This document shows, piece after piece, positions 1,065 to 60,370 of a stretch of DNA of 64,000 nucleotides (its first letter is position 1; every line of letters starts with the position of its first letter). Both the position numbers and the translations under genes were made by a program. Under the pieces are notes generated by a model, which saw only the letters and a list, made by a program, of their open reading frames with translations, ran no database searches and was not told the origin of the DNA. The DNA is taken from NCBI GenBank assembly GCA_021234155.1, contig JAJEKV010000041.1, forward strand, positions 8,254,917 to 8,318,916, in the 5' to 3' direction. The stretch comes from Isoetes taiwanensis (taxonomy: Eukaryota > Streptophyta > Lycopodiopsida > Isoetales > Isoetaceae).

Positions 1065-1066
1065 AG

Positions 1067-12776: not shown

Positions 12777-12781
12777 CAATG

Positions 12782-13367: not shown

Positions 13368-13369
13368 AG

Positions 13370-13381
13370 TGGTATCAGAGC
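13370..13381 (+). promoter_or_regulatory. Primer-binding site of D (initiator-Met tRNA)
   Basis: TGGTATCAGAGC two bases after the LTR end. Confidence 0.93.
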
Positions 13382-14286: not shown

Positions 14287-14300
14287 AGACGGGGAGGAAT

Positions 14301-14886: not shown

Positions 14887-14891
14887 CAATG

Positions 14892-16683: not shown

Positions 16684-17320
16684 TTGCTCCTTCGGGTGAC
16701 CACTTTACCTGTTATCTCAATGATTTTGCCATCTGGCATCATTAAGGTGACTTTCCGCTTCCAACAATCAATCACAGCTCCAGCCAGGCAAAGGTATTTC
16801 ATGCCTATGGTCAAGTCATACTTGCCGATGTTCATCACTTCTGCTCCCATTCCAAAGTTGATACCTGGCAAGTCTATATCAAAGTTGATCCTCTTTCCTA
16901 TTGTATGTCGGATTGCCCCACTTGCCAACATAATGGGCCTAGGCTTGGACTTCAAAGGCTTCGGCTTCAACATCTCTACCATCCTTGGCAAAGCAAAATT
17001 ATGGGTGCTCCCCGTGTCTATCAACACTATGAGGGATTTGGCTTTGACTTTCCCAATCATTGAGATGACCCGGTATTGACTCTCGGCATTCTTAGAGTCA
17101 ATGGCGGCAAAGATGTGGCACTCATCCTGGATGTAGTCGCAAGCATCTTCTTCTCGATCTCGGGGGGTGTCTCCCATCCTCCTAGCTCTGCTAGCGCCGC
17201 ATTCATCACAAAGGGGCAGTTGTGTGTCCAATGTCCTGGCTGGAAGCACCTGAAACACAACTGCTTTTCAATACATTTTTGCATCTTCTCCTTCGGAATG
17301 GACTGCAAAAACTGCTTCAC
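16614..17320 (-). pseudogene. A1 Gag zinc knuckle and aspartic protease
   Basis: The CCHC zinc knuckle CFRCFQPGHWTHNC is read at about 17260-17210. After a frameshift near 17150, the protease active site [18 protein letters not shown] is read at about 17010-16960, with the flap and C-terminal part to 16614. The knuckle binds RNA in Gag; the protease matures Gag-Pol. The second frameshift and the upstream one near 17320 show decay. Confidence 0.88.
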
Positions 17321-18375
17321 TGCTTTGGATAGTTTGAACCTCCCTCTTGCTCTTTGTTCCTGAAACTGACCTGCTTCTTGTCCTGTTTGCCAAAATTTGC
17401 ATTCCCTTGCTTTCCATAGTTTGCATTGTACTGAGGTCTAGCAGCTGCCGTGGCGTATAGCTTCCCATAACTTTCTCTTTGTCCTGATAGTACTGATGCT
17501 TCTGTCCATTACCTTGGGGACCTGTTCCTTGTAAGCTCACGGCCTTAGACTCTGCTTTTGACACTGTTTTGGGGTTTATAGCTCTTACAAGCTTCCTGAT
17601 CTCCTCATTCAAGCCTTCAATGTATCCCTCTACTGCATGTCTTTCGCTCAATTTTGGCACATAGAGCCTCAGTCTCATAAACTCTTCGGTGTACTTCTGG
17701 ACCGTCTTATTGTCCTGCTCCAACCTGTAAAACTATTGCATCATATGGAACTTGTGTTCCCTTGGCACGTAATGATGCTTAAATGCCTTGGACAACTTTT
17801 TGAATTTGCAGTTGTCTCTGCTTAACCCATGGGCTTTTGTATAGCCTTTCCACCAAATTTTGGCCACTCCCTTGAGGTTGGCTGTCGCTACCCTGCCCTT
17901 GTCCTTATCTTTCATACTATGAGCATTTCCGTATTCTCTCATTTCATCCAACCAAGCCTCGGCTTCTATCCCTGACCTGTTGTCTCTTGGGAACTGTTCC
18001 AGCTTCCTGACTTTCCACACATTGCTCAGTGCGGAGTCGACTTTCTTCTGGTAGTCAGCTTCAATCCTTCTCCTATCACGGTTGGGACCCTCATGGCAGT
18101 CCTGCCGATCGTTGTCCTGCTCCGCAGATTCGGAGTCGGAACTAGAGTTGGAGGAATTCGTGCTAGGGAATCTCTTCTTTGCCTTGTCCGTGCAAGGCTC
18201 CTATCTCGTGGATATCGGATCTCATTTGAGATATCTCCTCGTTTGGGTTTGCTGCCTCGAACTCTTGGAACAGGTTCCTTGGTTGAAATTGTCTTGCAAA
18301 TGTTTGCTCTTTCTGAGGTTGTCGATCTTGTTCTATATTCCTAGGTGCTCTAGCTGCATACACATTAGATTGCAC
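17268..18375 (-). pseudogene. A1 Gag (capsid region)
   Basis: The minus strand reads a Ty3/gypsy Gag core: IWWKGYTKAHGLSRDNCK and FKHHYVPREHK (about 17860-17740), then [20 protein letters not shown]. One in-frame TAG at about 17730-17732 divides the core. The N-terminal part (18375-18163) is in another frame. Gag forms the virus-like particle. The region lines up with B2 Gag at 52790-53200. Confidence 0.85.
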
Positions 18376-18534
18376 TCTTATGATTAGCTTTTATTTGTTA
18401 TTGCATTGGTTGTTTGATGACATAGTTGTGGGGACAAAATATATCAAAGAACATTCATAATGCCATCAATTATATTCATAAGGTACAATATTTTTACAAT
18501 CAATAATAGAAAGAAAAAAAGTTTTAATCTATTC

Positions 18535-19299
18535 TTAGAATCTTCGATATGCTGGGCTGTCTTCTAAGAACAACTTTATTTGGGATGTATCGACTGTTCG
18601 TCCCAAGTTCCTAAGAATGTTGGTGGGCGTACCACCTTGAAGTGTCGTTACCAGGTCTTTGACTCTTCTATCCGATGTATAGGCCGCAGTGACGACCAAC
18701 CTGTCCTTACGTCTGAATGGGACTGCGAACTCGAAGACGCTCAAGGCTATTGACCTCTTGACCAGGATGATATGGTCGATGTTTGGAGGCATCCGAGCAT
18801 GCCTACCAAATCCCGAGAGGGCACTAAGCATGAACATTCCTTCTTCCCGTGGGCTGAACTGGCAGTGTATGCCTTCTATCCTTCCGTCGGTGAGGAGTGG
18901 AAGGTGAAACCTGAGGGCATTATCATGTCCTCCCTCTGCTGCCTCTTCTGCAGTTCTGATCCCGGCCCTGTGGCTTTCGGAGTACTCATCCACTGATACC
19001 GCTATCAAACCCCTATAGTCTGCAAACATGGACCTGGAAGAGGTCAAGTTGATGCTGCCTCTTTCTAGCACGGCTGGCGCGGCTGATGAGGTGTTGGACA
19101 AGAGCGCGCTTGTTGTCTTTCCCCTGATACCCATCCATTCCTGAATGGCTATAAATTCCTCCTCTGAGGGCAGCTCTTGTTGCATCATCATTTGTCGAAC
19201 GCCGCTGTAAGCTTCAATCGGATGATGACTGTCCAGTTTAAGTGTGGGCTTCCCTGATGCTGATGAGGAAGTCTTGCATCTCTCGGTCGATGAAGTCAT
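18535..19299 (-). CDS. A1 accessory ORF3, function unknown
   Basis: 254 codons open on the minus strand, between the 5' LTR and gag. No known domain is recognised. The middle segment (LSALSGFGRHARMP … ILVKRSIAL) aligns with ORF3 of family B (LRALSTLAGHKKLP … VLVRRDLAL in B2), and the end (TSDRRVKDL … FLEDSPAYRRF) aligns with the end of the F remnant near 62080-62215. Conservation in three families suggests a real accessory protein. No membrane segment or signal peptide is evident. The start at 19299 is the first ATG; a longer N-terminus linked to ORF2 cannot be excluded. Confidence 0.65.
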   Translation of the reverse strand: MTSSTERCKTSSSASGKPTLKLDSHHPIEAYSGVRQMMMQQELPSEEEFIAIQEWMGIRGKTTSALLSNTSSAAPAVLERGSINLTSSRSMFADYRGLIAVSVDEYSESHRAGIRTAEEAAEGGHDNALRFHLPLLTDGRIEGIHCQFSPREEGMFMLSALSGFGRHARMPPNIDHIILVKRSIALSVFEFAVPFRRKDRLVVTAAYTSDRRVKDLVTTLQGGTPTNILRNLGRTVDTSQIKLFLEDSPAYRRF

Positions 19300-19338
19300 C
19301 GAGATCGGGCTGTTGGCATAGAAGATGCAGGAGTTCGT

Positions 19339-19690
19339 CTATCCTGTAGCCTCTCTGCACTCCGAGAGATTCATTATGTCGTGCAAATCATCTACTCTTG
19401 GCCTTCGATGATGACCGGGATTAGACTGGTGATGCCTAACCAAGTGGAGGGCTGTCCTTGTTATCCTCAAACCTTCGTCGAAGCCCTGAAGGTCTTCTTC
19501 TGCTTGTTGCCATTCTTGTATGGAGTCGAGGAACCTTGTCCTTCCTATGCCTTTTCCTCTTGCTCTTGACCCTTCATACTCCAGGAGCAACTGTTCTTCT
19601 GCAGCTCTTGGAATCAGAAGTCTGTAGCTCCTCTGGAAGTGTCGAATCTCCGAGCGTCCTTTGCAAAGTATGAATTCGACTTCCTCTTCA
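19339..19690 (-). pseudogene. A1 fused remnant: H3-like first helix joined to ORF2
   Basis: Minus-strand reading near 19640-19590 gives SEIRHFQRSYRLLIPRA, which looks like the alpha-N helix of a CENH3-type histone. What follows aligns with the middle of F ORF2 (about 61200-61350) rather than the histone core, and in another frame there is SLIPVIIEGQE, matching the ORF2 motif of B2 (ALPVIYHQGQEYLLL). I infer a deletion that removed the histone core and the ORF2 N-terminus. The histone assignment rests on about 15 residues plus synteny with F and B. Confidence 0.5.
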
Positions 19691-19697
19691 TTGGCTT

Positions 19698-20480
19698 CTA
19701 TGGTGGTACGGGTCTCTCTAGGGACGGCTTCAAAGTGTTCTCTCTTGTTGGCCTTCCTCCTTCCATGTACGTCACCTTGTTCGCTTCGTAATACTTTGAA
19801 TATGCCTCGTACATCTTCATGTACTCCTGGTACTCCCTCAACTTCTTCTTGTTCTCCCGCTCATGCTTGAGTACGTAAGACTCCTGTGCCGGCTTGACCT
19901 TCTTGGGATCTCTTGATGGTTTTGGCCATTTTGAGTAGGGAGGTAGTGCTGCAGCTTCTTCATTGTCGGGATTGGAAGGTCCTGATCCTTCTGTTGGGCG
20001 GGGAATTCTCCACGCCTCATCGTCCGACTCCGTCTCTGATGAAGATGGTGGCCTACCGGGCTCCCGCTCCGTTATTGTAATCCCTTTACTCGGTGTTGTC
20101 TTTGTTTTCCTCCGGGCTTTCTTTGGCAATTCTGGGTTCTTCCCTTTGGCCTCTTTCTGCCTCTTGCGCTCCTCCTTTTCTGCAAGTCTCTTCCTCTTTG
20201 CTGCCTTCTTCATCTTGTCGACTTTCCTTTGTCCACCTGCCAACCTCTCTGTTTCCGTGGGGTCCTCCTCATTCTCCTTCTCTTGCCTATTGCCCTTATT
20301 CTCTGGGTTTTCTTGGTTATCAGGGTCCTATTGTTGTTCTTCTTGGTCCTGATGCTGCTCGTCATCCTCCTGAGTGTCTAGGTTTGGGTTTAGATTTTCT
20401 TCGTCTCTGGCTCGCTCTCGAGCCCCCCTCGCCTTTTGTTCTGCTACAAGAACCAGGACGCTTGTCGATCTGTCTGGCAT
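19698..20480 (-). pseudogene. A1 accessory ORF1, charged coiled-coil-like protein
   Basis: Minus-strand frame from ATG at 20480 (MPDRSTSVLVLVAEQKARGA) to a stop at 19698, 261 codons with one in-frame TAG at 20328-20330. Very rich in Lys, Glu and Arg (…KRKRLAEKEERKRQKEAKGK…), then a region KLREYQEYMKMYEAYSKYYE that aligns with F near 59490-59570. It occupies the place of ORF1 in family B, upstream of the histone-like segment. Its charge suggests nucleic-acid binding; this is inference. Confidence 0.6.
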
Positions 20481-21072
20481 AACCACTCAAGCAGTTTGTT
20501 GGTGCGGGCCATACTTTGAAATAAGTCGATCACCTACTGAGTGCCTAGAAATAGCCTTCTTGGTCGGAGAGCAGCAAGCTAGAGGAGTATGGTGAAATGA
20601 AGAATAAGGGTCTAATTATAGGTCTGGGAGTTTTAGGGTTTCAACCTGCAATTTTATGTTATGCCATTATGTAAAACATTCGTGTTTGCTAGATTAAGAC
20701 ATCAGGTTCTTTCAGACAAACAGTACTGCTACCACTCACACAGTGCGTGAGAAGCACTTTCAAAACTTTTGAAAAGGCCCTTGCATCTTTTTAGGTCAAA
20801 ATTGGTCAAACATTCACAGTGCGCGAGAGCCTTATTTGAAAATGCCTTGGGCGCACTCTGTGAGAGGTTGCTCCCTAACGGCCAGAATTTTTCATGGTTT
20901 CTACTATGTCTTCCTTTATTAACATTATTCGACTTTATTGTTCTAAAGATTGGAATTTTTTTTTTCTAATTTTCGAGGTTCATGCTTGGATTGTTGTTCC
21001 CAAGGCTGAAGGTCTACTGTTAGTCCTATCAGGGAAATGGTCAGTGCCCGATCTTGGTCTACCAAGATCATG

Positions 21073-21084
21073 GCTCGGATACCA
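21073..21084 (-). promoter_or_regulatory. Primer-binding site of A1
   Basis: The minus strand reads TGGTATCCGAGC, the initiator-Met tRNA site with one change. Confidence 0.85.
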
Positions 21085-22592
21085 CTTGACGTTCCCCACT
21101 TCGTCTACGATGATCCCATCGTATTGGAAGGCAGAGTTCATCCCTCTAGCAGCCAAGTTGACAGAGGCCGTCCACCTGACACCAATCCTTTAGCAAGGGA
21201 CCGATGAGGAAGAATAGACGGGTCATTTGTCACGTCTTCCCTCGGGACTGTCCTAGCTACGGAAGCGTAAATAAACATAAGTATATGACATCAGATGCAA
21301 CGAGAGCAACCTCGAAGAGTGGCTATACCATAGCATGCATGTTTAAACACATTAACAACATCATCATCACATGGGAGATACCCAAGACTCAGACTCCAAG
21401 GTATGGACTGAGGGCTTGGGTCCCCAAAAGCCATTGCAGACAGAATTCATGAGAGTGAATTGGGCTAGCATAGGAACATGGCTATTAGGAAGTCCTTTCC
21501 ATCCGCCCACTTTGCAGAATAGGTTGAAGAGTCTTGGGACTGGACCGTAGCCTGCAGGGTGCGTAGCCAAAGGGGCTACTACTGAGTTTCATCTCCCCAG
21601 CCCCGATGAGGGAGAAAGGGGATCACCCCAAGGCATGCATGCCCATCACAGCGGCTAGAGGGCCACTGACTGTCTTCGACTTGAACCTCATTGAAGGTGA
21701 CTCATCACCAAGAGGTGTCGAGCTCATTCCTTGCCCACATGCAGTGGCAAGCCATTAAGCCTAGCCTGCTAAGATCCCTGGTAGGCTTTACACACCAGAG
21801 GGATCAGTCTGTAATGGGACAAGTCCTTATTCAACCGATCTAACCCCGCCACACACAACCAGGTGGACTATTGTACACAGACCGCATTAATTGGGAATTA
21901 ATGAGGCTATCTAGATACATCTAGTACTGAAGGTTTCAGGGTCTCTACCCCCCTTCCCAATACACAGGAATGCACATAGAATAGAACATCATCATCAAAG
22001 TACTGAAATACTGAATATACCTAATCTATCTTACCTAACATACATGGTTAGGTTCCTTAGTTAAGGCTTGTGATCTTAGGATCTACAAGGCTGCTAAGAC
22101 TGATCTAACATGCTATCCCAGCTTATTGCCGGGCTAAAAGTCAGCATTGCACAACAGAATCATAGGTTACCTGATCCCTGTCTTGTTCCTGCTCCTCGAA
22201 TCGCGTCCATGCCTTTGTTTAGATTGAAGGCAGCTGTTCCTGGGAGATCTGTTGTGCAAAGGCAGCTTGGTGGCGCCTGGCAATGCGAACTAGCAGCTTG
22301 GCTTGGTCGAAACGGCCCAAGGAAGCCAAAATGCGAAAATGGAAAAGGTTTAAAGTTTTTCCTTTTGTTTCTTTTACATGACCTTTTAGGTTTAGGTTAG
22401 AAAGGACAAATGGGATTTTTCCATGAGGCAAAGGGGTTCAAGTGCATATGTTTAATAGACATGTGCAACATACGAGGTTGCCCCCTAGGCGCAACCCCTT
22501 ATGGCTCTCAAGTACTTGTCAAGGTGACATGTACGCATGGCGTGGCAATATAATATATGTATTCGGACCGTATATTATGCTAGAACGTCACA
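21085..22592 (-). repeat. A1 5' LTR
   Basis: 1,508 bp. The minus strand starts TGTGACGTTC at 22592. The target duplication TATAA follows at 22593-22597. Confidence 0.92.
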
Positions 22593-22597
22593 TATAA

Positions 22598-24323: not shown

Positions 24324-25430
24324 CTAGCATTCTCGCATAAAGTCCAGGTAAGTCTTATCCAAATCCGCTTCAAGAACCCAGGTTGCATCTTCTGTCGGTA
24401 AGTGCCTCCACTTAACCAAATACTGCAAGATTTGAGTTCTCCGGGTTTGCTTATATGCAAGATCAAGGAGAGCTTCAGGCACAATCTCCAATTGATCTTC
24501 CATCATTTCGAGAAGTGTCGCCATGTCAAGAATCTCTTCTGGATCGGGTTTATACTTCTTGAGAAGACCCACATGGAAGACTTTGTGGACCTTCAAATGT
24601 GTGGGTAGATTCAACCGGTAGGCTTGAGAACCTATCCTCTCAATTATCTCAAAAGGTCCCCCATCTAGGTGCAAGCTTCTTACAATTGCCAATTTTGAGT
24701 TTGGCTTGCTTCACCTTAATCTTTAGTCATAGGACTCACCAACTTGAAATTCTTGTGGTGTCCGATGTCGGTCGGCAAGGCTCTGTTGCCGGGCTCTAGC
24801 AACTGACAAATACCCTCGAACTTCTTCGACTAGGGCTTGTATATTTGTAAGCAGTTGTTGAGACACTTCCACCTTGGAAACTGGATTATGCCACGTGTCT
24901 GGAGTAAGGCATTGATAACCATAATTGATCATAAAAGGAGACATTCTTGAAGACTCCTGCCTAGTCCTGTTGTAGGCAAACTCTACTAAATGGATATAGT
25001 CTGCCCATTGGGATTGCTTCTTCCTGACCTCGATTATGCAATTGGTACGCTCTGTTTGGCCATCGGTCTGTGGGTGGTAAGTTGTGCTCATTGCAAGCTT
25101 AGTTTGAATAGTGCTAAAGAGATCCTTCCAAAAGGCACTAACAAACTTAGGATCCCGATCCGATATAATGTTATGGGATATCCCATGAAGGCGAAACACC
25201 TCTTTTGTGAACAACAAGGCAGTACACAATGCAATGTCTGTGGTCCGGCATGGCAAGAAGTGTACCATTTTAGAAAGCTTGTCGACCACTACCATCAAGG
25301 CATCAAAGCCCCTTAAAGTGCATGAAAGCCCCACGATGAAATCCATGGTAATAACTTCCCATTTTGCATTTAGCACATCTAAGGGTTGCAATTCCCCTGG
25401 GATGCACAGCTGTTCGAAGATGATGCTCAT
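24324..25430 (-). pseudogene. B1 integrase core and chromodomain
   Basis: Minus-strand integrase core: [13 protein letters not shown] (first Asp), ISDRDPKFVSAFWK (second Asp), HPQTDGQTERTN (region of the catalytic Glu), to about 24723. After a frameshift, the GPY/F end and a chromodomain: HLKVHKVFHVGLL, QLEIVPEAL, ILQYLVKWRHLPTEDATWV, ending at 24324. The chromodomain is the best preserved in the window. The upstream zinc region is missing because of the deletion near 25430. Confidence 0.9.
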
Positions 25431-30267: not shown

Positions 30268-30481
30268 TGCAGAGGCGAGTCGTGGAAGAGGAGCAAGAAG
30301 CAAGAGGAGCAAAGAAGAGTGTATTTTAGTTTAAACTTTTTGTGCTGACGTCAGCGTCAGTCATTGATAATATTTAAATAGATACTTTATTTTTCACAAA
30401 AGAAATCGGGCAGTCAAATTTTCTTATATTTCTATACAAAATTTGTACAAGGAAATGCTTGACAAGCAAGCTATTATTATG

Positions 30482-31800
30482 GTCTCCTTGAATCCTTCGG
30501 GCGAGAGCCAAATCCTTGGTGACCCTCTTGGCATGAATAGGCTAGGGATTGGCATCCCCAAAAAGGGCTACCAGGTAATCTCCGGTGGCCTCCTGTAAGG
30601 GGAGCATAGCAAAAGTCTGGTGAACCGAAGATCGATCCGGTAGTCTTGTGCTATCTCTCGGACCAAGCACTGGAAGGGGAGCTTCCATAGTAGAAGCCCA
30701 GTTGTATTTTAGTACTTTCGAATCTCCCTCAACGCCATGATGCCATGCCTGTACTGATGCAGCTTCTTTGGCTGCGTCGGCTTCTTGGGTAGGATCTTGC
30801 CCCCTGACACCAACCGAGATTGGGCTGCATCCACTCGGTCCTGCCGACGGGCGGAGCTCGTGGCCTTTTCGATGCCCCCAAGTGTCTTAAGCTTCTCCTT
30901 GTAGGCACCCCCTGTCTTATGGGCGGTAGCCTTTCGCCTCTGTTTCACAATAGGGGTCTCAGTCTGGTCGGGAGCCCGCTATGTATTCTGCTCTAGATTT
31001 GGTTGGGGTTTCTGCTGATCTTGATTTTGCTTGGCAAGCTCCTTTGCTTGCCGTTGCTGCTCGGCCCACTCTACCTCGTGCTGCGCAGGATAGGCAGCTC
31101 CCATGCGCTCTTCCACCTCTGCAAGGCGGCGAGCAGTGATCCTTCTCAACAGCTCAGCATGATACTTGTCTGGCCTGGCCTGCATATCTAGCTGAATGGC
31201 TATCAGGTAATCCACCATGAGGTATGACGGGACTTCACCCCAAGCAAAACTCTGGGTGGCCTCATCATACTGGTATGAGGGAAGGTCAAAGGGGTTCCCA
31301 TTTATGATGGCTCTCCCATCCCCCAGGTAGACGTACTCTTTACTCCTGACCTTTAGGCCTTCCCTCTCTATCTCCCGGGTGTCATCCCCTCGGGCAAGTT
31401 TTCTAATCCTCTCGGCCTCTACCCGAATGGCCTCATCCTCGGGAACTTCCACATACGAGGGAGGATAAAACTTGACTAGCATGAGGACTTGGTCAGGCAG
31501 TTTTACTAATGTGTAGGGTTTCCGTAGGAGGTTGAGTTTTAGCAGAAAGCGCTCGGACAAATGGAAAATAGGATAAGGGATCCTATGTCTGGCTACAAAC
31601 CGTTGCACGAGCTCGATCAAGAGTAGCTCCACCTTGTCGGGGTCGCTAGCAAGTTGTTCACCGAGCTCGGCAAATATCTGTGGCACACTAAGGTTACCGT
31701 AACCAAGGGTACCGTGGGTATGAGCGAGGGGGCAAGCTTTTTCTCCGACAGCTATGGCAGACGGGCGAGGCGAGGTGCTAGGCGCAAAAATAAAAACCAA
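30482..31800 (-). pseudogene. B1 ORF1 with C-terminal histone H3 domain
   Basis: Minus-strand frame from about 31800, first protein of the element after the 5' LTR. The N-terminal 270 residues are unknown and charged (…RIPYPIFHLSERFLLKLN…). After one in-frame TAG (30979-30981) the frame continues with a basic tail (ATAHKTGGAYKEKLKTLGG) and then the H3 fold: HGIMALREIRKY (alpha-N), [20 protein letters not shown] (alpha-1), [18 protein letters not shown] (alpha-2), IHAKRVT and [11 protein letters not shown] (alpha-3), down to about 30482. Decay: a TAA where B2 has Gln, a 2-base insertion after DLRF, a stop in loop 2, and loss of three residues after RVT. Histone H3 forms the nucleosome core with H4. 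Here it is an element-encoded fusion. Confidence 0.88.
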
Positions 31801-32302
31801 AAAAAGTAACCGTCACTTTATCTTAAAATTCAATTTTTTTTTCAAAAACCTTTTTTTTTATAAAAGATATATATGGCAGAAATACGCGTTTTTATACGGA
31901 TGTGCCGCTAGCAAAATACACGTTTCTTTTTTTATTCTAAGATGCCAAAATGAAAGCGGCGCACTCTGTGCTTGCCCCCTCCTGTTGCCATTTTGATGCC
32001 GGGTGCTGGTGCTCTAGGGTAATTGGACCATGCCCGACACGTTGGTGCAAAAATCACACATATCCGAGTTACCTAGAGAAAGTTATGGCCCTTGAAAGCA
32101 AGAGTCCTCTTTTCTCCACAACTTAATATACTGACCCTACTAATTTACACCCTCCTACCTAACTAGTTTAGTCCTCCCATAACTAGGCCAACACACATAC
32201 TAACTATGGAATTGGGATAGTTTAACCTAAGACGAAGTCTCGTACAACCAACCAATCTAACGAGTTAAACTATGGCTAGTGCAATGATTTGGTCAAGCGA
32301 AA

Positions 32303-32314
32303 TATCTGATACCA
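32303..32314 (-). promoter_or_regulatory. Primer-binding site of B1 (decayed)
   Basis: The minus strand reads TGGTATCAGATA next to the LTR end, the initiator-Met site with end changes. Confidence 0.8.
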
Positions 32315-46160: not shown

Positions 46161-47770
46161 TGTGACGTTCCAAGTATTTATACGGTAGATGTATAAATAC
46201 ATTGACACGTCACCCAGTATAGATATGCCACCATGGGGTATGGTAACCTAGGGGGTTGACCTAAAAGGGATTTAATTAGCTATGTTAATTAAAACATTAA
46301 GGATAATAACCTATGATTAAGGAAATTAAGAATAATTAAGCTAATTATGGTTTGGGAAGGCGCCACCTGGCCAAACTCGATTGGCCAGCATGGGGATTAC
46401 TAATTGGAGCCAATAAGGTGGATCACCACCCCCATATCAACCAAAATCGAACCAGTTGAGCGCCCAAGGAGCAGTTGAGTGCCCAAGGACTGTTGCAGAC
46501 TTCACCAAAACCACTGAACAACCACTAGCTGTTGCTGCCACCCTACTTGCAGCACTATGGAAGCGCCCCATGATAACGGTTCCAGCCGAAACACGGGTTA
46601 GTAGTAGTTTAACCTGTGAGCTGTAGGGTAGTACCTTAGTACTCTCTTTTCTGATTGTCTTTGTTGAGATTAACCCTTCTCTGGTAAGTAGGATTACATT
46701 TCAATTATGTATGGTGCTCTGTTAAGGAATTGGTTGATGTATCTATGAACTATTCCGGTAGCTTCCATTAAACAGGGGTTTAAAGGGGGTAGAGACCTCT
46801 GAGCTCATATATGGTAGTATGCTCCTAGATAGAGCCCTGCAAAATTCCCATTAAATGCGGCCTGTGTACAAGAGACCACCGGGTCGTAGATGCTATGGTC
46901 TGGCTTAGCACCAGATAAGGGACACAGTGGTGAAGTGGGGGTGGGGTCTTGCACGAACATAAAAGGCTCCTGAGACTCCTACAGTGGGCTAGGCCACGAT
47001 AGCCGATCCGTGAGGGCCGGGTATGGGTCTGGCACTCCCTGGGTGTAGAGGTGTGATCCGTATGGAGCATCTTGCACTTTGAGTAGATTTAGGGTGAGTA
47101 AGTTGGGTACGGATGCGGGGCTCGCTGATGCGGCACGTATTCTCTAGCTCACCCATGGAACCACTGTGATCCTGGAAGGGGACGCTTCCCTGACCTGCCT
47201 CATCGGACCGGGGTGTCATGAACCCTGGAGCAGACTCACACGGGTGATACCTTGAGTTTGCGACTCCGAAAGGCTATAGCGAAGCCATAGCGTGAATCGA
47301 CCCATCTGCAAAGTGTGCACAGGAGGGGCGGATGGAGTGGACAACCCTAGCCGATGTTCTATGCCAGCCAACGCCATGCCAAGACTCGGTCTGTTGATCT
47401 CTTGAGGCCCAGCCGTTAGTCGATCCTCACTGGAGTCTGAGCCGGGGTAGAACCTGAGGTTTGGGGTGTTTTCTTAGTTTTAGATGCATATTCTGTGCCG
47501 TTGGTATTTGGATGGATGTGCCACCCTTCGTGGTGGTTATTTATATATGATTTATGATGTGTGCTAACCCTTGTATTCATGCTTCCGCGACGTAGGCGCC
47601 CATCGAAGGCGTGGGCCGAATGACACCTCCGTATCCTTCACTCGAGCCTCTCCACGTAGATGGCCCGGGTCAGACGGAGGGCCCTGCCCATGGCAAGATG
47701 GAGTGCCACGGGAGGGGAAAGTCCCCGTATGTATACGGCCGGGGGTCGTATATATTCAGGGAGCGTCACA
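46161..47770 (+). repeat. B2 5' LTR
   Basis: 1,610 bp, TGTGACGTTC…GAGCGTCACA, related throughout to the B1 LTRs. Confidence 0.9.
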
Positions 47771-47771
47771 G

Positions 47772-47783
47772 TGGTATCAGAGC
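47772..47783 (+). promoter_or_regulatory. Primer-binding site of B2 (initiator-Met tRNA)
   Basis: TGGTATCAGAGC one base after the LTR. Confidence 0.92.
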
Positions 47784-48550: not shown

Positions 48551-49791
48551 ATGGCCAACACCAAGAGTGCTCCGGATCCTACCAACCTTACTATAGCCCA
48601 GATCTACGCTTTGATCGCGCGAAATATGGCTACCGACCCTACTGCTAGATGAGCTAGTAAACAGATTTGAGAACAATGATAGGATCCCCTATCCTATTTA
48701 CCATTTCTCGGAGCCATTCTTGATCCGGTGAACCTCTTGACTTCCTTACACCATGGCGAGCAAGCGACTTGGTCATGATGCTGATTAAGTTCTACCCTCC
48801 CGAATGTGAAGGACACACCGAGGAGGAGGACATAAGGGGTGAGGCCGACCGTATCAGAAACTTGGCCAGGGAGGATGACCGCCAAGAGATAGAACGAGCC
48901 GATACGGCGGCTCGGGGTAAGGAGTACCGGTACCTCGGGGATGGACTCGCTGTTATAGATGGCCGGGCGATCGAGATTCCCCCATACCGATGGGATGAGG
49001 ATTCCCGCAGCTTCATATGGGGGGAGATCCCTGATATCAACATAGACTACTTAATAACAATCCAGATTGACATGGCCCAGAGACCCGACCGATACCATGC
49101 TGAACTCCTTCACCGCAGTGTAGCACAACATTACGCTCAGGTTGAAGAAGACCTTAGGAGAGCTCGGGAATTCCGGGAAGAGCAGGAGAGGATAGAACGG
49201 GAGAAAGCGGAGAAAGCCCGACAGGAGCAGCCGGACCAGCAGGGTGCAGGAGCATCCGGGAGTGGGCAGGGCCCAATACCGACCGAGCACACGACCGTTA
49301 AGCACCGGAGGAAGGCCGTGGCCCGGAAATCCGGCAGTCAATACAAGGAAAAACTAAAGACTGTCGGAGCTTTTGGGAAGAACGCGAGCTCCAGTCGGAG
49401 GCAAGAGCGGGTGGACGCGTCCCGACCAGTTGTTAGGGCCAAGACTGTACCTGCAAAAAGGGGGCCGCCTCCAAACCCTGCTCCACAGAGGAAGCCCCAC
49501 CGTTACTGACCCGGCACTGTCGCTTTACGGGAGATCCGTAAGTTTCAGAAGTCGACCCAACTTCTGATACAGAAGCTTCCCTTCCAGAGGTTGCTTCGGG
49601 AGATTGCCCAGGAGTTTAAGACCGACCTCCGCTTCCAGACTTTTGCCATTTTGGCACTCCAAGAGGCTGCGGAGGCCTATTTAGTGGCACTTTTTGGTGA
49701 TGCCAATCTTTGCGCAATCCACGCAAAGAGGGTCACCATCATGCCTAAGGATTTAGCCCTCGCCCGCAGGATTCGGGGGGAGCATCCTTAG
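48551..49791 (+). pseudogene. B2 ORF1 with C-terminal histone H3.3-like domain
   Basis: Starts MANTKSAPDPTNLTIAQIYA at 48551. A frameshift/stop near 48650 separates the N-terminus from the main frame (48769 on). Unknown charged region, then a Lys/Arg/Glu coiled-coil-like stretch (about 49130-49230), a basic tail with AVARKSGSQYKEK, then RKPHRY, a TGA (49507-49509, where H3 has Arg, CGA to TGA), and in the same frame a whole H3 fold: [81 protein letters not shown]. Tyr at H3 position 41 and Leu at 90 are residues of plant H3.3, not H3.1. Loop 1 has normal H3 length, unlike CENH3. Histone H3 pairs with H4 in nucleosomes. The fusion could place the element's protein in chromatin or mimic a tail; that is inference. 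Confidence 0.9.
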
Positions 49792-49996: not shown

Positions 49997-50920
49997 ATGG
50001 CAGCCACCGACCTTTTTGCATGGTACGAAGACGGAGAGCATTGGAATCCGCAAGTGCCCTTCGACTTGTTGCGGCCCTTGTTATGCCAGCGCCTAGACCT
50101 CATCACTAATATGTAGCGGCACCCAGATTATGCCGGGTTCTTAGACTTTTACATGGAGGAGATGCTTCCTTTGTGTATTCCTCTTGGGGATCCTCCCCAG
50201 TTGTACCTAGAACGGGAGGTAGTCCGGGATATGTTAGGGGGCGACACCCATGCATATGATGTGATGAAAGGAAAGCTCAGATGGGGCAAACACCTGCCCG
50301 TTATGCAGCATCAGGGGCGACAATATCTCGAAGTCACCTTCGCCTTAGCCATCCTCATGGATCAGTACGTTGAGGATGAGACCTTGCCTGCAGAGAAAGG
50401 CAAACTCCCTGAATCTTCCGAGGAGGGAGAAGATGAGCATATAGGCATGGGTGACTTCACCCGTTGGAAGCAATTGGCAGAGGAGATGCCACCACGAAGG
50501 GAACAAGCTGCGCGCTTTTCAAGGCTAGATGCCCTTCCAGTTATTTATCACCAAGGGCAAGAATATCTTCTCTTGGATGATATCATCTGGACCTATCACA
50601 TGGTGGCCGGATTTAAGCGCCGGCGTAAGGACCATGTGCTCTATGAGCTAGCGGAGTACTGTATGGATGATTTCATCGACTTCGCTCCTATTGAGCTTCC
50701 CCCGGAGGTGCAACAGTTACTCCAGTTCCGCCAGGAGACCATAGAGCCAGCTGAGACTTTGCTACGGCTTCGGGAACTGGTGATGCAGGAACCGGCCTCT
50801 CAGCCCTCACCGGATGCCTTACAGCTATGGGACCTCATGTGCCAAACATTAACATGGTTGAGATTCCTTCCGATTCGGATGAGGAGGGAGAGGATCTATA
50901 CCATAATCCTGCTCATTTGA
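49997..50920 (+). pseudogene. B2 accessory ORF2, function unknown
   Basis: 308 codons from MAATDLFAWYEDGEHWNPQV with a single TAG (50114-50116; B1 has Gln here). Contains LYLEREVVRDMLGG, LAILMDQYVEDETLP, a Glu-rich stretch and LDALPVIYHQGQEYLLLDD. Homologues are in B1, A1 (partial) and F. No known domain, signal or membrane segment. It overlaps ORF3 by about 90 bases in another frame. Confidence 0.75.
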
Positions 50921-51396
50921 AGGAAGAGCAACAGGAACTTAAGGAGGAAGAAGTCCCTATAGACTTAGATAAGGAGGTGGCCACGTCAGAGACCCCGCAA
51001 GGGAAAGTATTGGGAAACCACCTTACTCGTTTCTTCCTTTCAGCTTTTCGACAGGGGCAAGTTCTTTTTATAGCCCGAGATTTAGGGCCAGAGGCTGAAG
51101 CATCATGGTGGACCCTCCGTGCCCTCTCCACATTGGCCGGGCACAAGAAGCTTCCCTATCGTACGTTCACCTATGTACTCGTACGACGGGATCTTGCCCT
51201 GACGGCCTTGGGGCAAGACATTGCACCCTGGATGAGCATGAAGCTCCTTACGGCAGCCCCCTTGGCTGTTGCTTATCCGCCAGAGGTTGCTTCCATCGCG
51301 GCTGCCACGGTAGACCCAAGGGTGACTCTGCTACGACACCGACCGCCGCCACCACCTCCTAGGTCAACTAATGAAGAGGGAGGACCTAGCTCTTAA
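50827..51396 (+). CDS. B2 accessory ORF3, function unknown
   Basis: 189 codons, intact. An acidic start (PSDSDEEGEDLYHNP) is followed by a charged helix, LGNHLTRFFLSAFRQGQVLF, LAGHKKLPYRTFTYVLVRRD and a Pro-rich end. Shared with B1, and in its centre with A1 and F. Start chosen at 50827 because it matches the B1 alignment. Unknown family. Confidence 0.7.
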   Translation: MGPHVPNINMVEIPSDSDEEGEDLYHNPAHLKEEQQELKEEEVPIDLDKEVATSETPQGKVLGNHLTRFFLSAFRQGQVLFIARDLGPEAEASWWTLRALSTLAGHKKLPYRTFTYVLVRRDLALTALGQDIAPWMSMKLLTAAPLAVAYPPEVASIAAATVDPRVTLLRHRPPPPPPRSTNEEGGPSS

Positions 51397-51621
51397 ATAA
51401 TTGTATCACGCATATTGTATTGCATATACATGTAGAATTTTGGATTAGCAACTTCTAGCCATTCTATAGTTATGATATACCATCTTTTTATCAATTGTGA
51501 CTATTGTCTCAAAGAATACAATTGAAATTGTTCTCTTCCATGATGCGTTTTTCTTCTATCTGTTAGAGTTTAGGGCATAACAAAATTGTTCAATGTTCTA
51601 TATTCATTTCTATTGTCTTAC
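51397..51621 (+). other. B2 ORF3-ORF4 gap, possible intron end
   Basis: About 225 AT-rich bases, ending in a pyrimidine-rich stretch and TTACAG before the ORF4 frame. It could be an intron or a plain spacer. Confidence 0.35.
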
Positions 51622-52081
51622 AGAAGAAACACTCGAAGAATATGAGGAGAGGATTACAGACCTGATAAGGAGGGATGACCCCGGGCCGCCCGACTAGGAC
51701 TATGGCCAAAGGTATGGGGAATACCCGGAATGGGACGAAGGTTACGAGATAGAACCCGCGCCACCAGGGGAGCCCTATGATCCAGCTAAAGGCATGGAGA
51801 TAGTTAACATTCTCAGGGAACGAGCCTACGAGGACCTGAAGCAAACTCTTCGCCGCACATGGGACTATTGGGACATGTCAAGGCACGAAGCTTTCGAGGA
51901 CGCCAACGACCACCTGTGGCAAATCTTCTATGCATTAAGGAGGCTTTTCAATCTCCTTATCATTAGCCCAACGCTAGATTACCAATCTGTAATAGTTCAG
52001 GCCTGGGCACGATACAAGCTCGTTAGGGCTGTACGTGAAAGCGTTCGCTACTCGATTTTGTACCCCTTTGCGAACCCCTAG
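51622..52081 (+). pseudogene. B2 accessory ORF4, function unknown
   Basis: The frame runs from about 51622 with an acidic segment, one TAG near 51695, then from 51794 MEIVNILRERAYEDLKQTLR, DHLWQIFYALRRLFNLLIIS, PTLDYQSVIVQAWARYKLV. Predicted mostly helical. Matches B1 ORF4; not recognised elsewhere. Confidence 0.6.
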
Positions 52082-52339: not shown

Positions 52340-54787
52340 ATGCTGGATATAGACGGTGCACGCAACGCCGCTTGGCAGACGCCCTCAAGTGCCAGTAGAT
52401 TAACACCTGAACAGGAACTTATGCTAATGAAGAGGCAATTAGGCGAGTTGCAAGCGTATGTGTTGCATGCCAATCCACCCTAGCATATACAAGAAAACGG
52501 ACCAGAGTTACCTCCGCCACCGCCAAGTCCACCTACACAGCAGCCATCTCCACCTGAAACCAGCCCTGTACCTGCACAGAGGGGACCTCGTTCTAAACGT
52601 CGTCGGAGTTCCTCTAGGGATAGCGCCACCTCCTCACAATCAGCCACTTCTGTGTCTTCTGAGTCGTCAGTATCAGCTGGTGACCATGCAAAGCGCCGGG
52701 ATAAGGAATACCGCAAGACGGTTGATACCGCCATAACGAGTATATAAAAGAATAGGAAACTGGCCCAGTTTGATGGGAAATCTAGAGGCGGACTGAATGC
52801 AGAGTCCTGGCTGGACGAAATGAAAGAATTTGGGAAATCCTATGGCGTGACAGAAAAGGATACAGGAAAGGTTGCCACCACGAACCTTACAGGAGCTGCC
52901 CGTATTTGGTGGAAGGGCTATGCTAGAGCCAAGCATCTGGATAGAAGCAGATGCAAGTTTAAGAAGTTTGCTAAAGCTTTTAAGTCGCATTATATGCCCC
53001 GTGCGCACAAATGCCAGCAAATTCAGACCTTCTATAGGTTAGAGCAGAAGGGTATGTCGGTTCAGGCTTACACTGATGAATTTATGCGCCTGAGGCTGTA
53101 TGTACCAGGTATGAATGAAAAGAGGGCGGTGGAGGGCTACATTGAAGGATTGGCCCCATCAATCAAACGAATGGTTAAGGCCATAGACCCGAAATCAGTT
53201 GCGGAGGCAGAGGCTAAAGCATTGAGCCTCGAGGAGGACACACCAAAGAATCAGTATCCGCGTCCTGCCCCATACTCGCAGCCACGGCCGTCCACACCTT
53301 ACAAACCCCGCTCGCCAAGCCCGGGGCCCTCTCAGCAGAACTCTTATGGCCGCCAGGAAAAGAAAGTCACCTTCAGCACGGCCGATAAACAAAACAATGT
53401 CGGTAAGGAAGTTCGGAACCTCTTACAGTCCATTCCTAAAGAGGCCCGAGAACAGCTCCGCCGAGATAAGGCATGCTACAGGTGTATGCGGCCCGAGCAC
53501 TTTATGCACAATTGTCCTTATGTCACACAGACTGCCCAGCTGGCCATGGCCGACCTCGATTGGGACGATCTTGAGTCAACTCTACCTGTCGAGGAGGAGG
53601 CTCCCGAGTACATTCACGGTGTGTCTCATATCCTTGCAGCAATAGAAACCGGCAATGCTGAAAGTCAGCCTGCTGTCATTTCCACCATAGGTCAAGTAGA
53701 CAGCAAGCCTTTTGTAATTCTTATGGATACGGGAAGTACACATAATTTTGCTTCTCCTAGAATGGCCCAGGTCTTACAGCTTGAAATATTGAGGTCCCGA
53801 CCGAGGCCTGTCACTCTAGCCAGTGGTAAGGTCAGACATACTCATGGCCGTCGCATCAATCTCAAGATGCAGTTGCCAGGTGCACCAGTTGCTTTGGGTG
53901 CCGAGTTGATGGATATTGGCAAATACGACCTCATTGTTGGTATGGAATTCTTGGCATCTGCAAAAGCCAACATAGACTGCGAGAAACGGGAAGTTACCTT
54001 CAACGCAGCTAATGGAGCCCGCGTGACTATAAAAGGTGAACCATTCAACCCTATCATGCAGTCTATGTCCATCAGGCAGTTAGATAAAGCTATACGCAAG
54101 GAAAAGCTCCTTTGCGTCATTAGGCTTGCCTCCATTGAGTCAGAAGCTAAACAGAAGCAAGTAATCGATACCTTGCCAGAGGGGATTGCTCATCTTCTCC
54201 GAGAATTCGGTGATCTTTACCCAGATGAAATCCAGAAGCTTCCTCCTTTCAGAGGGGTGGAATGTGAGATAGCTTTAGAGCCAGGTACTAAGCCTACCAG
54301 CAAGGCCCCGTACCGTATGAGCCCCCCAGAATTGGCAGAGCTTAAGAAGCAACTTCAGGAGTTACTAAACCTAGGTTTCATCCGACCTAGTGTTTCGCCT
54401 TTTGGCGCTCCTATTCTTTTTGTTAAGAAAAAGGACGACTCCTTGAGGATGTGCATTGATTATCGGCAACTCAACAAGCATACCATCAAGAATCGCTATG
54501 CCTTGCCTAGAGCAGATGATCTAATGGATCAGTTGCAAGGGGCTAAGTATTTCTCAAAGATTGACCTACGCTCCGGATACCATCAGATAAGGATTAAAGA
54601 GGAGGACATCCACAAATCTGCTTTTCGCACTAGATATGGGCATTATGAGTTTACAATTATGCCTTTTGGATTAACTAATGCCCCAGCAACTTGCATGCGA
54701 TTGATGAATGATGTCTTCCGACAATACTTGGATGATTTTGTTGTTATTTTCTTTGACGACATTCTCATCTATATAGTAAGACCCTAG
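52340..54787 (+). pseudogene. B2 Gag-Pol: Gag, protease, RT palm
   Basis: One frame from ATG 52340 (MLDIDGARNAAWQTP) with two stops: TAG near 52481 and TAA near 52746. It is then open for 655 codons from 52820. Gag core with [14 protein letters not shown] and [20 protein letters not shown]; zinc knuckle [14 protein letters not shown] (about 53475-53516); protease [17 protein letters not shown] (about 53715-53765); [22 protein letters not shown] and FFDDIL (about 54750). A small insertion at about 54775 shifts the frame. Gag and pol are in one frame, with no shift needed between them. Confidence 0.92.
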
Positions 54788-56345
54788 AGGAGCATGAGAA
54801 GCATCTTAGATTGGCCCTACAAAAGCTAAGGCGTCACCATCTCTATGCCAAGTTCTCTAAGTGCAAGTTTGCCACTCCGAAGGTCGATTATTTGGGCCAT
54901 GTCATTTCGGCCGAGGGAATTGCTACAGATCCGGCAAAGATAGAGGCCGTAAAGGAATGGCCTATTCCAGGAAATGTTTCCGAGGTCCGAAGCTTCCTGG
55001 GATTAGCGGGATATTATCGGAAATTTGTAAAGGATTTTGCGAAGATTCCAGCGCCTCTTACAAATCTTACGAAGCAAAAGTGAAGGATTGGATGGAGCAC
55101 TGGAAGGCAAAGGTTCAGGGAAGTTTCCAGCAGCTTAAAGATGCCTTAACGTCAGCACCAGTTCTCACATTGCCCGATCCTGAGAAGGATAAATTAGTGG
55201 CAACGGATGCCAGTAAGATTGCCACCGGTGGAGTCCTAATGCAGGAGGGGAGGGTTATTGCCTATGATTCAAAGAAAATGAACGAGACGGAGCAACGATA
55301 CCCTACCCATGATCAGGAATTGTTAGCCGTCGTCCGTGCTCTGCGGATATGGAAACACTACCTTCTTGGTAGACGATTCCAGTTGGATACGGATCATCAA
55401 AGTCTCCGTTATTTATCCACCCAGCCAAATCTCAACCTCCGTCAGAGAAGATGGATGGAATTTTTGGAGGAATATGATTTTGAGATTATGTATAAGCCTG
55501 GCAAGCACAATGTGGTTGCGGATGCGTTGTCACGCCATCCCTTGGTAATCCGAACCCATTGTAATGCAATTTCTACACTCACCAGTGAGTTTGGAAAGCA
55601 GATAGAACAGGCCTTCGCCACGGATCCTGAGTTCTGTGAAGTTTGGGATAGTTTGGCCAAGGAAGCTCGCACAGATAAGGAGCGGGAAGCCTTTCGTTCG
55701 TATAAGAAAGAGGGCAACTTGTTATATTACAAAGATAAGTTGTGTGTGCCTGAGACTTCGGGAGTGCGTAAGTTAATCCTCCACGACACGCACAACAACC
55801 CTATAGCTGGTCATGCAGGTTTTATGAAGACCTACTTTAAGATTCGCTCCAGCTATTTCTGGCCTTCTATGAAAAAGGACATTGCCAGATACATCAAGCA
55901 GTGTCAGGTGTGTCAGCAAACCAAAGCTGAGCAGTTAAGGACTCCAGGCGAGTTGCAACCCCTGGATGTGCCCAACGCCAAATGGGAAGTGATAACCATG
56001 GATTTCATTGTGGGCCTTCCACGAACTCTCCGGGGATATGATGCCTTAATGGTAGTGGTCGACAAATTGTCGAAAATGGCTCATTTCTTGCCATGTCGTA
56101 CCACAGATACAGCCTTTGATACTGCTCTGCTATTTGCCAAGGAGATCTTCAGATTACACGGAATGCCACGAGTTATTATATCCGACTCGTAAGTGCATTC
56201 TGGAAGGATTTCTTTGCCACCATTCAGACCAAGCTCGCTATGAGTACGGCATATCATCCTCAAACAGATGGTCAGACAGAGCGTACCAATCGCATTATAG
56301 AGGATATGCTAAGAAGTTATGTGTGGAGTAAGCAATCACAATGGG
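54788..56345 (+). pseudogene. B2 Pol: RT thumb, RNase H, integrase (cut by F)
   Basis: RT thumb ([31 protein letters not shown]) to 55083; a frameshift; RNase H ([31 protein letters not shown]); integrase zinc region (HDTHNNPIAGHAG … CQVCQQTK, about 55790-55930); core MDFIVGLP and VIISDS, then a small deletion/frameshift at about 56190 losing the residues after the second Asp, and HPQTDGQTERTNRIIED. F interrupts at 56346, before the GPY/F region and chromodomain. Confidence 0.92.
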
Positions 56346-58244: not shown

Positions 58245-60370
58245 AGTAGGGTGGTCTCACCGTCGCGCCGGAGACGATTTCTACATTTTAGAAATCGGGT
58301 CAAGCAACGTCTTGAACATTCACTGACACCAAAAAAGTTGTAAATTACAATTAAAATATCTTGATAATTCTAAATTTAAGCTAAGAATTAGTAGATTTAG
58401 CATGTTACATGTTAATTTAATAGTGGGCCCCACCATGTCTCACCGTCGGCGCCCGGAGGCGGGTTTCTAGATTCTAGGAATCGGCCGGGTATAGCGCGGT
58501 GAGACCTTGCTTAATTAAGTGTTTTAGATGCCTTAGACAACCCAAAAGGTAGTTTAAAAGTTGACCTAAAATTGGCCCTATAAATAGAACTGGACCCCTC
58601 CCATTTTTCCCCGTTCTTCCCGAGAACTTCGCCGTATTGTCAAAGGCGATCTTTCGGGCGCGTAGCTCCAATCGCGAACCGAAAAATGATGGCCCGCACG
58701 GCAGACTGCAAAGGAAGCCTAGCCGGGAAGCCGGATCCTCCGGCCCGGGCCAGCGCCCGGCCTTGTTCATAGGATTCTTCGGGGAACGCCTTCTCCGCGT
58801 CAGCGGATCTTCGTCGGCGAGGAATCGTGGTCGACAGGCGACCATACTGAGAGATCTTGGAGGACGATCGGCCGGGCGTCATGGCGAGATCCTCAATGAA
58901 ATTGAACGGCAGGAGGCGAGAAAGTGAGAGCGGCCAGGGAGCAACACCAAGGGGACGCCAACCCACGAGGGAGAGGGGAACAAAGAAACCCACCCATAGG
59001 CCAAGAACAACCCTGTGATGAGATCCACCCGCAGGAAGAGCAGTGTAGGAGAGGAGCAGCCACGTAACTCACCCCGAGGAAGAGGCCGATTTAGCACGCC
59101 TCGGGCCCACAAGTAACGGTCAAAGAGCCACGGAGCGTAGGATCAAAGCGGATCGGGGAAGACGCCGGGGGACCTAAGAAGAGGAGGGCCAAGGCCGCCA
59201 AGGTGCAAGAGGAAGCTGGTGAAGGTTGGGAAGAGAGCCGGAAGGTCCGGCCATCAACGAAGCCGCCGGAGGGGAGACCCCGCACCACCACCGACGATTC
59301 GACCAAGACTACGGTCGGGCGCAGACGGGCGAAGCTCTTCAAAGCCCCGGCCAGAGGAAGAGGTGCACGAGCGCGGCCCAAGAGCAGAGGAGGCCGGGCA
59401 GTGTGGCTAAGCCCCCACCATTTCCGACACGCGGGATAGGGTCAAGGCCCCACGGGCCGAGCGGAAGCTCTACGGATAGACCCCCTTAAAGGTCTATGAG
59501 AAGAGAATGAGGGAGCACAACGCATATATATGGCGAAGTGGGAGGCCTACAACACCTATTACCGGGAGCACCGGGTGAGAACGATCGGCGGGCACCGGAT
59601 TTAAGAGCCGGACACTAAAGCCCCCTCCACCAAAACCCAAGGCCCCACGAAAGCACGGGAAGAAGAGGAGCAAGAAGAAAGGGAGGAAGGCAGGGGCACT
59701 CAAGGAGATCCGCCACTTCGAGAAAAGTTACGCTCCCCGATTCCCGTCTTGCCGTTCCAGCCGCACCGTCCTTGAAGTCATTCAAGAATACAACACGGAC
59801 ATCGCTGCGTGATGTGACGAGAGATGTTCTTTGTGTTTGCAAGAGGCTACGAAGCCCACTTGGTGAAACATTTTGAAGATTCAACGCGGCACAACTGATT
59901 GCACGCGAAGAGGGTTACCCTCATGAGGCGGGATATGTATCTTGCCGCAGACACATCAAGGGAGAACGCCCTTGAACCTTGTAAATGACTATAAAATTTT
60001 GTTAATATAAAGAAAAACTTTGCGTAAATAAACTGTCCAAACCGGTTTAGATAGGTCAAGATATCGATCCCTAGCCTTCGTTTTAATTAAATTGGAGTTT
60101 GGAGCAAAATTGAGGCGATGTCTCACACGTCGCCGCCAGGAATGATTTCTACATTTTAGAAATCGGGGAAATAACGGTGAGACCATGCCCAAAAAATGCC
60201 CAAAACAGCTCCAAATCGACCAAGTAAGGGGTCAATTCTGCTAACTTCGATGAGATTAGTAGAATTACAGCCTTAGATCACCTAAATTGAGTAATCCTAG
60301 CCCAATTAGGACCCATGTCTCACACGTCGGCGCCGGAATGATTTCTACATTTTAGAAATCTGGGGCAATA
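58245..60370 (+). repeat. Four dispersed ~70-bp hairpin repeats in F
   Basis: Copies at about 58252-58310, 58436-58505, 60118-60184 and 60313-60384. Each has an outer stem GTCTCACCG/CGGTGAGAC (variably kept), a GGCGCC-rich part and an inner hairpin GATTTCT/AGAAATC with loop ACATTTT. Two lie before ORF1 and two between ORF1 and ORF2. Confidence 0.75.
58600..59985 (+). pseudogene. F ORF1 remnant with CENH3-like histone domain
   Basis: Broken frames of a basic protein. About 59480-59570 (HNAYMAKWEAYNTYYREHR) matches A1 ORF1. A Lys/Pro tail (KAPRKHGKKRSKKKGRKAG, about 59640-59695) leads into ALKEIRHFEKSY (59697-59732), VIQEYNTDI (about 59777-59805), LQEAT and, after a frameshift, AHLVKHFEDSTRHN, HAKRVTLMRRDMYLA (about 59850-59950). 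EIRHF and VTLMRRD are more like CENH3 (EIRHFQ, VTLMRKD in Arabidopsis) than H3 (EIRKYQ, VTIMPKD). Decay makes loop 1 unreadable. The histone identity is fairly safe; the CENH3 link is inference. Confidence 0.65.

Follow-up and report, generated by a model that had tools for sequence, protein, structure and literature searches.

Histone H3 cores at the end of the first open reading frame of chromovirus-type retrotransposons in Isoetes taiwanensis

Introduction

Chromoviruses are known to read histones by means of a chromodomain, and the elements described here encode a histone. The question raised by this locus, a 64,000-nucleotide stretch of Isoetes taiwanensis DNA (the window), is whether the histone H3 core found there in an open reading frame upstream of a retrotransposon gag is a stable and functional part of the element, and what it might do for it. 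The capture of domains by plant LTR retrotransposons is regarded as a rare event (PMC9289625).

Results

Layout of element B2 and its H3 core

The features of the element designated B2 were placed in the window as follows.

46161..47770, plus strand, B2 5' LTR, beginning TGTGACGTTCC; limits approximate
47772..47783, plus strand, B2 primer binding site, TGGTATCAGAGC; exact match, placed at the LTR end
48551..49791, plus strand, B2 ORF1: element-specific N-domain, charged spacer, basic linker and C-terminal H3 core
49492..49788, plus strand, B2 H3 core, with KPHRY at its start, a stop at position 42 and RIRGEHP at its end
49997..52081, plus strand, B2 ORF2 region, fast-evolving accessory protein(s), in the order ORF1, ORF2, gag
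52748..56303, plus strand, B2 gag, protease, reverse transcriptase (RT), RNase H and partial integrase, cut at the start of the element C LTR (about 56346)

The primer site search returned 7 matches in the window against 5.3 expected by chance, and the B2 site was accepted because of its exact match and its position at the LTR end, not because of the match count. Ty3_capsid, Retrotrans_gag, RVP_2, RVT_1, RT_RNaseH and Integrase_H2C2 exceeded their Pfam cut-offs in B2, in which a Ty3-type gag and the order protease-RT-RNase H-integrase are present. B2 ORF1 is broken twice, by a change of frame near 48650 and by a TGA (49507-49509) where H3 has R42. Homology to H3 extends from about K37 (KPHRY) through the C-terminus, and the H3 segment lies in the same frame as the upstream open stretch 48724-49506 with the TGA between them, as the sequence-only reading had stated; its derivation of this stop from CGA is not demonstrated, B1 (see below) having AGG there. 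The complete H3 fold claimed for the end of ORF1 was confirmed with the Pfam histone profile PF00125 (49510-49788, plus strand, E=5.5e-38), the region matched a solved plant-type H3.3 chain (E=6.5e-47), and frameshift-aware alignment to H3.3 gave a score of 396 against a maximum of 41 in 40 shuffles. The full core of an H3 histone fold is predicted on this basis.

Neither the ORF1 N-domain nor ORF2 of B2 had a Pfam match, and their AlphaFold models were of low quality (mean pLDDT 54.7 and 37.5, respectively), too poor for a fold search. A protein database search with B2 ORF1 gave 961 candidates, none at E 0.01; the H3 region gave 7812 matches, the best 120 of which were mostly named H3 or uncharacterised; and the gag-RT part gave one distant match (E 1e-20) among 7999 scored. 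ORF1 and ORF2 had no match in viral_contigs, and Rfam returned none at the gathering threshold. AATAAA occurs soon after ORF1 in both B2 (49838-49843) and B1 (30391-30386), and a separate polyadenylated transcript of ORF1 is therefore conceivable.

Element B1 and its kinship with B2

A second element, B1, has the same order of parts on the minus strand.

30479..31812, minus strand, B1 ORF1, with a decayed H3 core at 30753-30479
32303..32314, minus strand, B1 primer binding site, 2 mismatches
24327..24710, minus strand, B1 integrase C-terminus with chromodomain (PF00385, E=6.9e-9)

The chromodomain bears out the assignment of the host element to the chromoviruses; the integrase core (rve) of B1 reached only 1.4e-5, short of its cut-off. 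The B1 H3 core has decayed by two internal stops, one frameshift and a three-codon gap, with another stop upstream of the core. Its frameshift-aware alignment to H3.3 nonetheless scored 252 against a maximum of 40 in 40 shuffles, in agreement with the earlier claim that B1 carries the same fusion at the same place. Relative to Arabidopsis H3.3, B1 and B2 have in common S86T, H87F, G102A, E105G, T107A, I124L, Q125A and R134H, and the lesions seen in their ORF1s have none in common. The eight residues common to both indicate one inherited fusion, older than either copy. Nested in B1 ORF2 is a TRIM-like element (29735-30204) with 158-bp terminal repeats that are 94% identical and a primer site TGGTATCAGAGC at 29895.

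Elements A and C

Two further elements in the window, one of which splits the B1 3' LTR, contain ORF1s with a remnant of H3 (A) or a divergent H3 core (C).

5024..22593, minus strand, element A, nested in the B1 3' LTR with a 5-bp target duplication, TTATA
19579..20512, minus strand, element A ORF1, beginning ATGGCCCGCACC with a 1-bp deletion relative to L062, and with an H3 remnant at 19650-19579
58801..59970, plus strand, element C ORF1, start uncertain, with a decayed, divergent H3 core at 59696-59969

The core of element C, a more distant element, gave alignment scores of 139 with H3.3 and of 102-113 with two CENH3s and CENP-A (maximum of 40 shuffles, 38); its first H3 piece alone was not significant in a PDB search (best E 0.027), the best 60 of the 95 matches all being H3. 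Element A ORF1 ends in a 24-residue H3 piece followed directly by ORF2 material, the rest of H3 being missing. The piece was rejected as significant by itself, with a score of 43 against up to 48 in unrelated 8-9 kb stretches, and it was identified as an H3 remnant by homology to L062, an A-type copy found in the 30 kb adjoining the window and picked without regard to H3. L062 has, in order, ORF1 (62% identical to that of A), a decayed H3 core, ORF2 (71-73%) and gag (77%), which suggests that element A lost the remainder of its H3 by deletion. Comparisons of B-type ORF1 N-domains with those of A and C did not exceed the shuffle maximum (0 of 4). Similarity of ORF2 between types was weak: three of six comparisons exceeded the maximum of 24 shuffles (58, 52 and 60 against 50, 48 and 54), and the other three fell within it.

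Copies in the genome

The assembly (1,658,258,908 bp, 1110 contigs) was searched for histone sequence, yielding 8705 first-look candidates, 150 of which were scored. Fifteen places matched the profile from position 2, in open frames of 139-232 aa, and the eight of these that were read (L001-L008) are ordinary 136-residue H3s of 2 core types; the other 135 begin at profile position 4 or later, past the canonical start. Open frames of at least 300 aa contained 55 of the 150 places, none of them among the 15 canonical ones, so that the further copies for which a whole-genome search had been proposed proved to be many. Internal stops were present in 5 of the 150. A 0.3-Mb interval of contig C1025 (2.98-3.28 Mb), perhaps a host histone cluster, holds four of the 15 canonical matches.

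Forty of the 55 long-frame copies were read (the B-type set) and in every one phmmer placed the H3 core at or near the end of a frame of 331-494 aa; by core sequence the copies form at least three groups. In all five copies followed downstream, ORF1 was succeeded by ORF2 and then gag, and in four by protease-RT. The match to the latter spans only query residues 1-186 in L049 and 1-160 in L052; in L050, gag stops after residue 161 of 284, and protease-RT was looked for downstream and not found. Across this set (L049-L053) the gag pieces are 87-98% identical to that of B2 and the first part of ORF2 45-88%; copies with nearly equal gag therefore carry very different ORF1-ORF2 cassettes, which hints at swapping or rapid diversification of the cassette. 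Among three copies examined with their 3' part, LTR pairs were found in two (L041/L060, 97.2-97.8% identical; L040/L059, 95.4%), and none was found for L010/L058. The L060 chromodomain is 74.5% identical to that of B1, its integrase has a stop, and no chromodomain was found in the 3' stretches L058 and L059.

Matches to the A-type ORF1 reached the H3 end in 32 of the 40 scored; the other eight break off earlier (query positions 732 to 1052), either short of the H3 part or within it. Four random 9-kb stretches contained no H3; one of them, L055, holds a decayed partial A-type RT, upstream of which neither gag nor H3 was recognised. In the decayed L063 and L064 an ORF2-like stretch was present, with H3 not found upstream and gag not found.

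Selection on the H3 core

In the B1-B2 pair, which was found by position and not by H3 and whose ratios include the decay of B1, the H3 core gave pS 0.742, pN 0.149 and pN/pS 0.20 over 86 codons (0.22 with two more codons), with silent sites near saturation. Elsewhere in the same pair pN/pS was 0.22 for protease-RT, 0.16 for RT-integrase, 0.34 for gag, 0.39 for both the N-part and the linker of ORF1, and 0.28, 0.28 and 0.41 for parts of ORF2. The H3 ratio is on a par with that of protease-RT and below those of gag and the ORF1 N-part. Across the 40 B-type copies the median dN/dS of the H3 core was 0.042 (314 pairs), a value biased downward because picking the copies by H3 score lowers dN; the medians for N-domain, spacer and linker were 0.161 (172 pairs), 0.317 (182) and 0.154 (234). 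Mean pN/pS of the core was 0.022-0.064 within the three groups and 0.07-0.17 between groups; host H3 compared with host H3 gave 0.022, and one further pair had no nonsynonymous difference. Thirteen A-type copies, located through DNA similarity to ORF1 in its entirety (12 of 40 fetched, chosen among matches reaching the H3 end), gave dN/dS of 0.166 for the H3 core, 0.488 and 0.295 for upstream regions, and 0.81 and 1.64 for wrong frames. Element C against B2 gave 0.50-0.52, the decay of C included.

The H3 core is under purifying selection. A ratio near 1 across copies, which the sequence-only reading had named as telling against its proposal, is contradicted by the B1-B2, B-type and A-type values, and its view of the fusion as a family trait is upheld, with selection maintaining it. 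Transduction of host genes by plant LTR retrotransposons is documented (PMC7264820), and a captured gene of no use to the element could have been carried along passively; ratios of about 0.02-0.2, silent divergence up to near saturation and an H3 in frame in many copies contradict this account, which we consider extremely improbable, and neutral carriage is excluded as far as the present data reach.

Source of the core

Tyr41 and Leu90 had been taken as signs of an H3.3-type source. Arabidopsis H3.3 has T31, Y41, H87 and L90. Among the 15 canonical host matches, the eight that were read, which represent 2 core types, all have A31, Y41, E77, S or T87, and L90; since they share Y41 and L90 these residues do not mark H3.3 among them, and an H3.3 source is not supported. 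At residue 87, 31 of the 39 B-type fusions have F and the other 8 have H, and the B-type cores are of canonical length.

A first tree placed the CENH3s of Arabidopsis and maize among the fusions (support 0.559), probably through long-branch attraction. A later one grouped A-type cores with CENH3 (UFBoot 84) and set A, B and CENH3 together against host H3 (87), but its branches are long and it was built on some 90 residues with few CENH3 references, so that its grouping of A-type cores with CENH3 may have the same cause. On this tree the A- and B-type cores may derive from one capture or from two. ORF1 could be thought to imitate CENH3, with its MARTK start, long variable tail and divergent core, and so to steer copies to centromeric chromatin. 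The A-type grouping favours such targeting, as does the string EIRHFQxSYxLLIP, which resembles Arabidopsis CENH3; against it stand the possible attraction of long branches, the spread of matches over many contigs, and the two-residue loop-1 insertion, which three CENH3/CENP-A references have and all the cores in the alignment (4 A-type, 14 B-type) lack. The two L062 core pieces, moreover, fit Arabidopsis CENH3 (scores 74 and 127) about as well as they fit host H3 (72 and 127). With no insertion and similar scores the A-type cores were not classed as CENH3, and we regard centromere targeting as improbable. CENH3 shares with the fusions the MARTK start (in A-type and two B-type copies), the long variable tail and, for A-type, a diverged core; the fusions differ in lacking the loop-1 insertion, in being encoded by mobile elements and in their high copy number.

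The N-terminus, the tail and the linker of ORF1

The A-type ORF1 begins MARTKQTAR, which corresponds to H3 residues 1-8 after the initiator Met. The string is exact in L062 and L066 (2 of 13 A-type copies), where it is followed by V at the place of H3 K9; the other 11 have one to four scattered changes or stops, or a 1-bp deletion (L072), and element A has the same start with its 1-bp deletion. When all six frames of the window and of seven stretches were scanned, MARTKQTAR occurred at 6 or more of 9 residues once only, at the ORF1 start codon. Most B-type ORF1s read do not begin in this way (e.g. MPRFK, MEEVK, or MANTK as in L040 and L044); two start MARTKGTK, one of them L041.

The basic linker was compared with the H3 tail. 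None of the B-type linkers (39 correctly cut; L022 was miscut but counted) exceeded shuffles at the 5% level, and the B2 and B1 linkers were equalled by 724 and 371 of 2000 shuffles, or 574 and 132 of 2000 with softer gaps. A hidden H3 tail in the linker, to which B1 with softer gaps came nearest, was accordingly rejected as no better than shuffles, and an N-terminal tail with K4, K9, K14 and K27 is absent, apart from residues 1-8 in A-type. Tail mimicry, as suggested from the window, thus fails for the middle of the tail, where the linkers are at shuffle level, and is reopened by the A-type start, which the sequence-only reading had not mentioned. A motif K[ST]GxxYKxxL recurs well before the core in L026, L031, L040, L042, B1 and B2.

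Given both its MARTKQTAR start and its H3 core, the A-type ORF1 reads as an H3 in which about 300 residues replace most of the tail. The simplest reading would be that a whole H3 was captured and that its tail was later opened by an insert, or replaced except for the first residues; the start may also have arisen by independent mimicry of the H3 N-terminus.

A variant of this kind might be deposited in nucleosomes on new copies and, with the K9-K27 tail replaced, escape H3K9me and H3K27me, the A-type retaining the true K4 N-terminus. Such evasion of silencing would accord with the 39 correctly cut linkers in which the middle of the tail is unrecognisable, with the V in place of K9 in L062 and L066, and with the conserved DNA contacts described below. 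It is harder to reconcile with the different start of most B-type ORF1s read and with the need for one protein in small amounts to outcompete host H3, and we think it unlikely.

Conserved faces of the core and possible function

Core positions were compared with host H3 in 39 of the 40 B-type copies, L022 being excluded as its anchor string was absent. Host-identical residues were found in at least 90% of copies at 71 of 94 positions and, by face, at 9 of 9 of the H3-H3'/ASF1 face, 12 of 15 DNA contacts and 14 of 17 H4-facing hydrophobics, the residues of each face being those that we take, from nucleosome and ASF1 structures, to form it. The host residue is in the minority at positions 60, 64, 86, 87, 89, 101, 102, 104, 105, 107, 124, 134 and 135. 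Such changes affect 8 of the 29 positions from 86 to 114 and 5 of the 65 others (Fisher p=0.02), a region, like the "variant patch", chosen after the changes were seen. It is in residues 86-114 that known H3 variants differ in their choice of chaperone. The pattern has the expected look of a working H3 that appears altered where variants choose their chaperones; the conserved faces would be kept equally under rival uses.

The chromodomains of B1 and L060, compared by eye with HP1, have no aromatic residue at either the first or the third cage site, which is the type II chromodomain pattern of PMC6317226. Reading of H3K9me by the integrase is doubtful with these aromatics missing, so another chromatin contact would be useful to the element.

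ORF1 may be a retrotransposon-encoded H3 variant that has kept its histone fold and acts as a chromatin tether, a proposal whose chances we judge to be evenly balanced. A host H3 would have been captured and most of its N-terminal tail interrupted or replaced by the element-specific region of roughly 300 residues; the core would pair with host H4, be escorted by host chaperones of H3-H4 (ASF1, for instance) and dock on or enter nucleosomes; and the N-terminal part would carry Gag, integrase or the pre-integration complex onto chromatin. Direct observations are the histone fold, its location after the primer site and ahead of ORF2-gag, the many copies and the purifying selection; tethering is what we infer from the fold alone.

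A more far-reaching proposal, tentative and less likely than not, is that the element encodes its own nucleosomal histone, with a true H3 N-terminus (A-type), a complete fold and an element-specific tail region, which would be built into or onto host chromatin and there direct integration or resist silencing, the ORF1-ORF2 cassette being swapped or rapidly diversified between subfamilies with almost equal gag and the core staying fixed. ORF1 might instead never enter nucleosomes and use its binding of H4, ASF1 and importin to carry Gag or the pre-integration complex into the nucleus. The fully conserved ASF1/H3-H3' face and the concentration of changes in 86-114 (p=0.02, region post hoc) would suit such a carrier, yet the DNA-contact arginines, needless for a pure import adapter, are kept as well; we doubt this account. 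The degrees of confidence attached to these uses are not mutually exclusive.

The multi-copy H3 kept by selection makes it directly testable whether an element can supply a nucleosome component, choose a chaperone route or alter chromatin at insertion sites. Nature has also provided in these copies a set of H3 variants whose core faces are constant and whose residues in 86-107 are altered, useful for learning what sets the deposition of H3 variants.

Relation to known systems

Histones are coded by giant viruses and bracoviruses, and histone mimics such as influenza NS1 occur. These share with the present case a mobile or viral genome coding for a histone fold or tail mimic; here the carrier is an LTR retrotransposon and a single H3 is fused to a long N-terminal protein. 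Canonical host H3s (L001-L008) agree with the fusions at the 71 core positions given above, and the fusions differ from them in having most of the tail replaced and in changes at 86, 87, 89, 102, 105, 107, 124 and the C-terminus. With plant Ty3/gypsy chromoviruses these elements have in common the LTRs, tRNA primer site, gag, protease, RT, RNase H, integrase and chromodomain, and they differ from them by extra ORFs between primer site and gag, the first ending in an H3 core.

No histone-bearing retrotransposon was found among the matches listed in the open-licence PMC literature (titles and starts of abstracts). A close parallel is provided by Phalaenopsis Ty3/gypsy elements with an AlkB-type m6A demethylase ORF (PMC9289625), which likewise have a host-type domain in an additional ORF kept through replication; theirs is an RNA-modifying enzyme and not a histone, and the elements are likened by the authors to Ogre elements. 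In the main texts, the word histone is absent from a review of additional ORFs (PMC7264820), occurs once, about chromodomains, in a survey of plant LTR elements (PMC6317226), and is absent from two Isoetes genome papers that report Gypsy elements (PMC8566536, PMC10541799).

Other features of the window

Within a 4.2-kb direct duplication (94%; 1-4185 and 8593-12739) are small LTR elements whose 0.83-kb LTRs stand about 1.1 kb apart, and a similar small LTR element lies at 12782-14886 (586-bp LTRs, 97% identical). Outside the described elements, a long Q/P-rich open frame with no Pfam match, possibly a host exon, occupies 35708-36289 on the minus strand.
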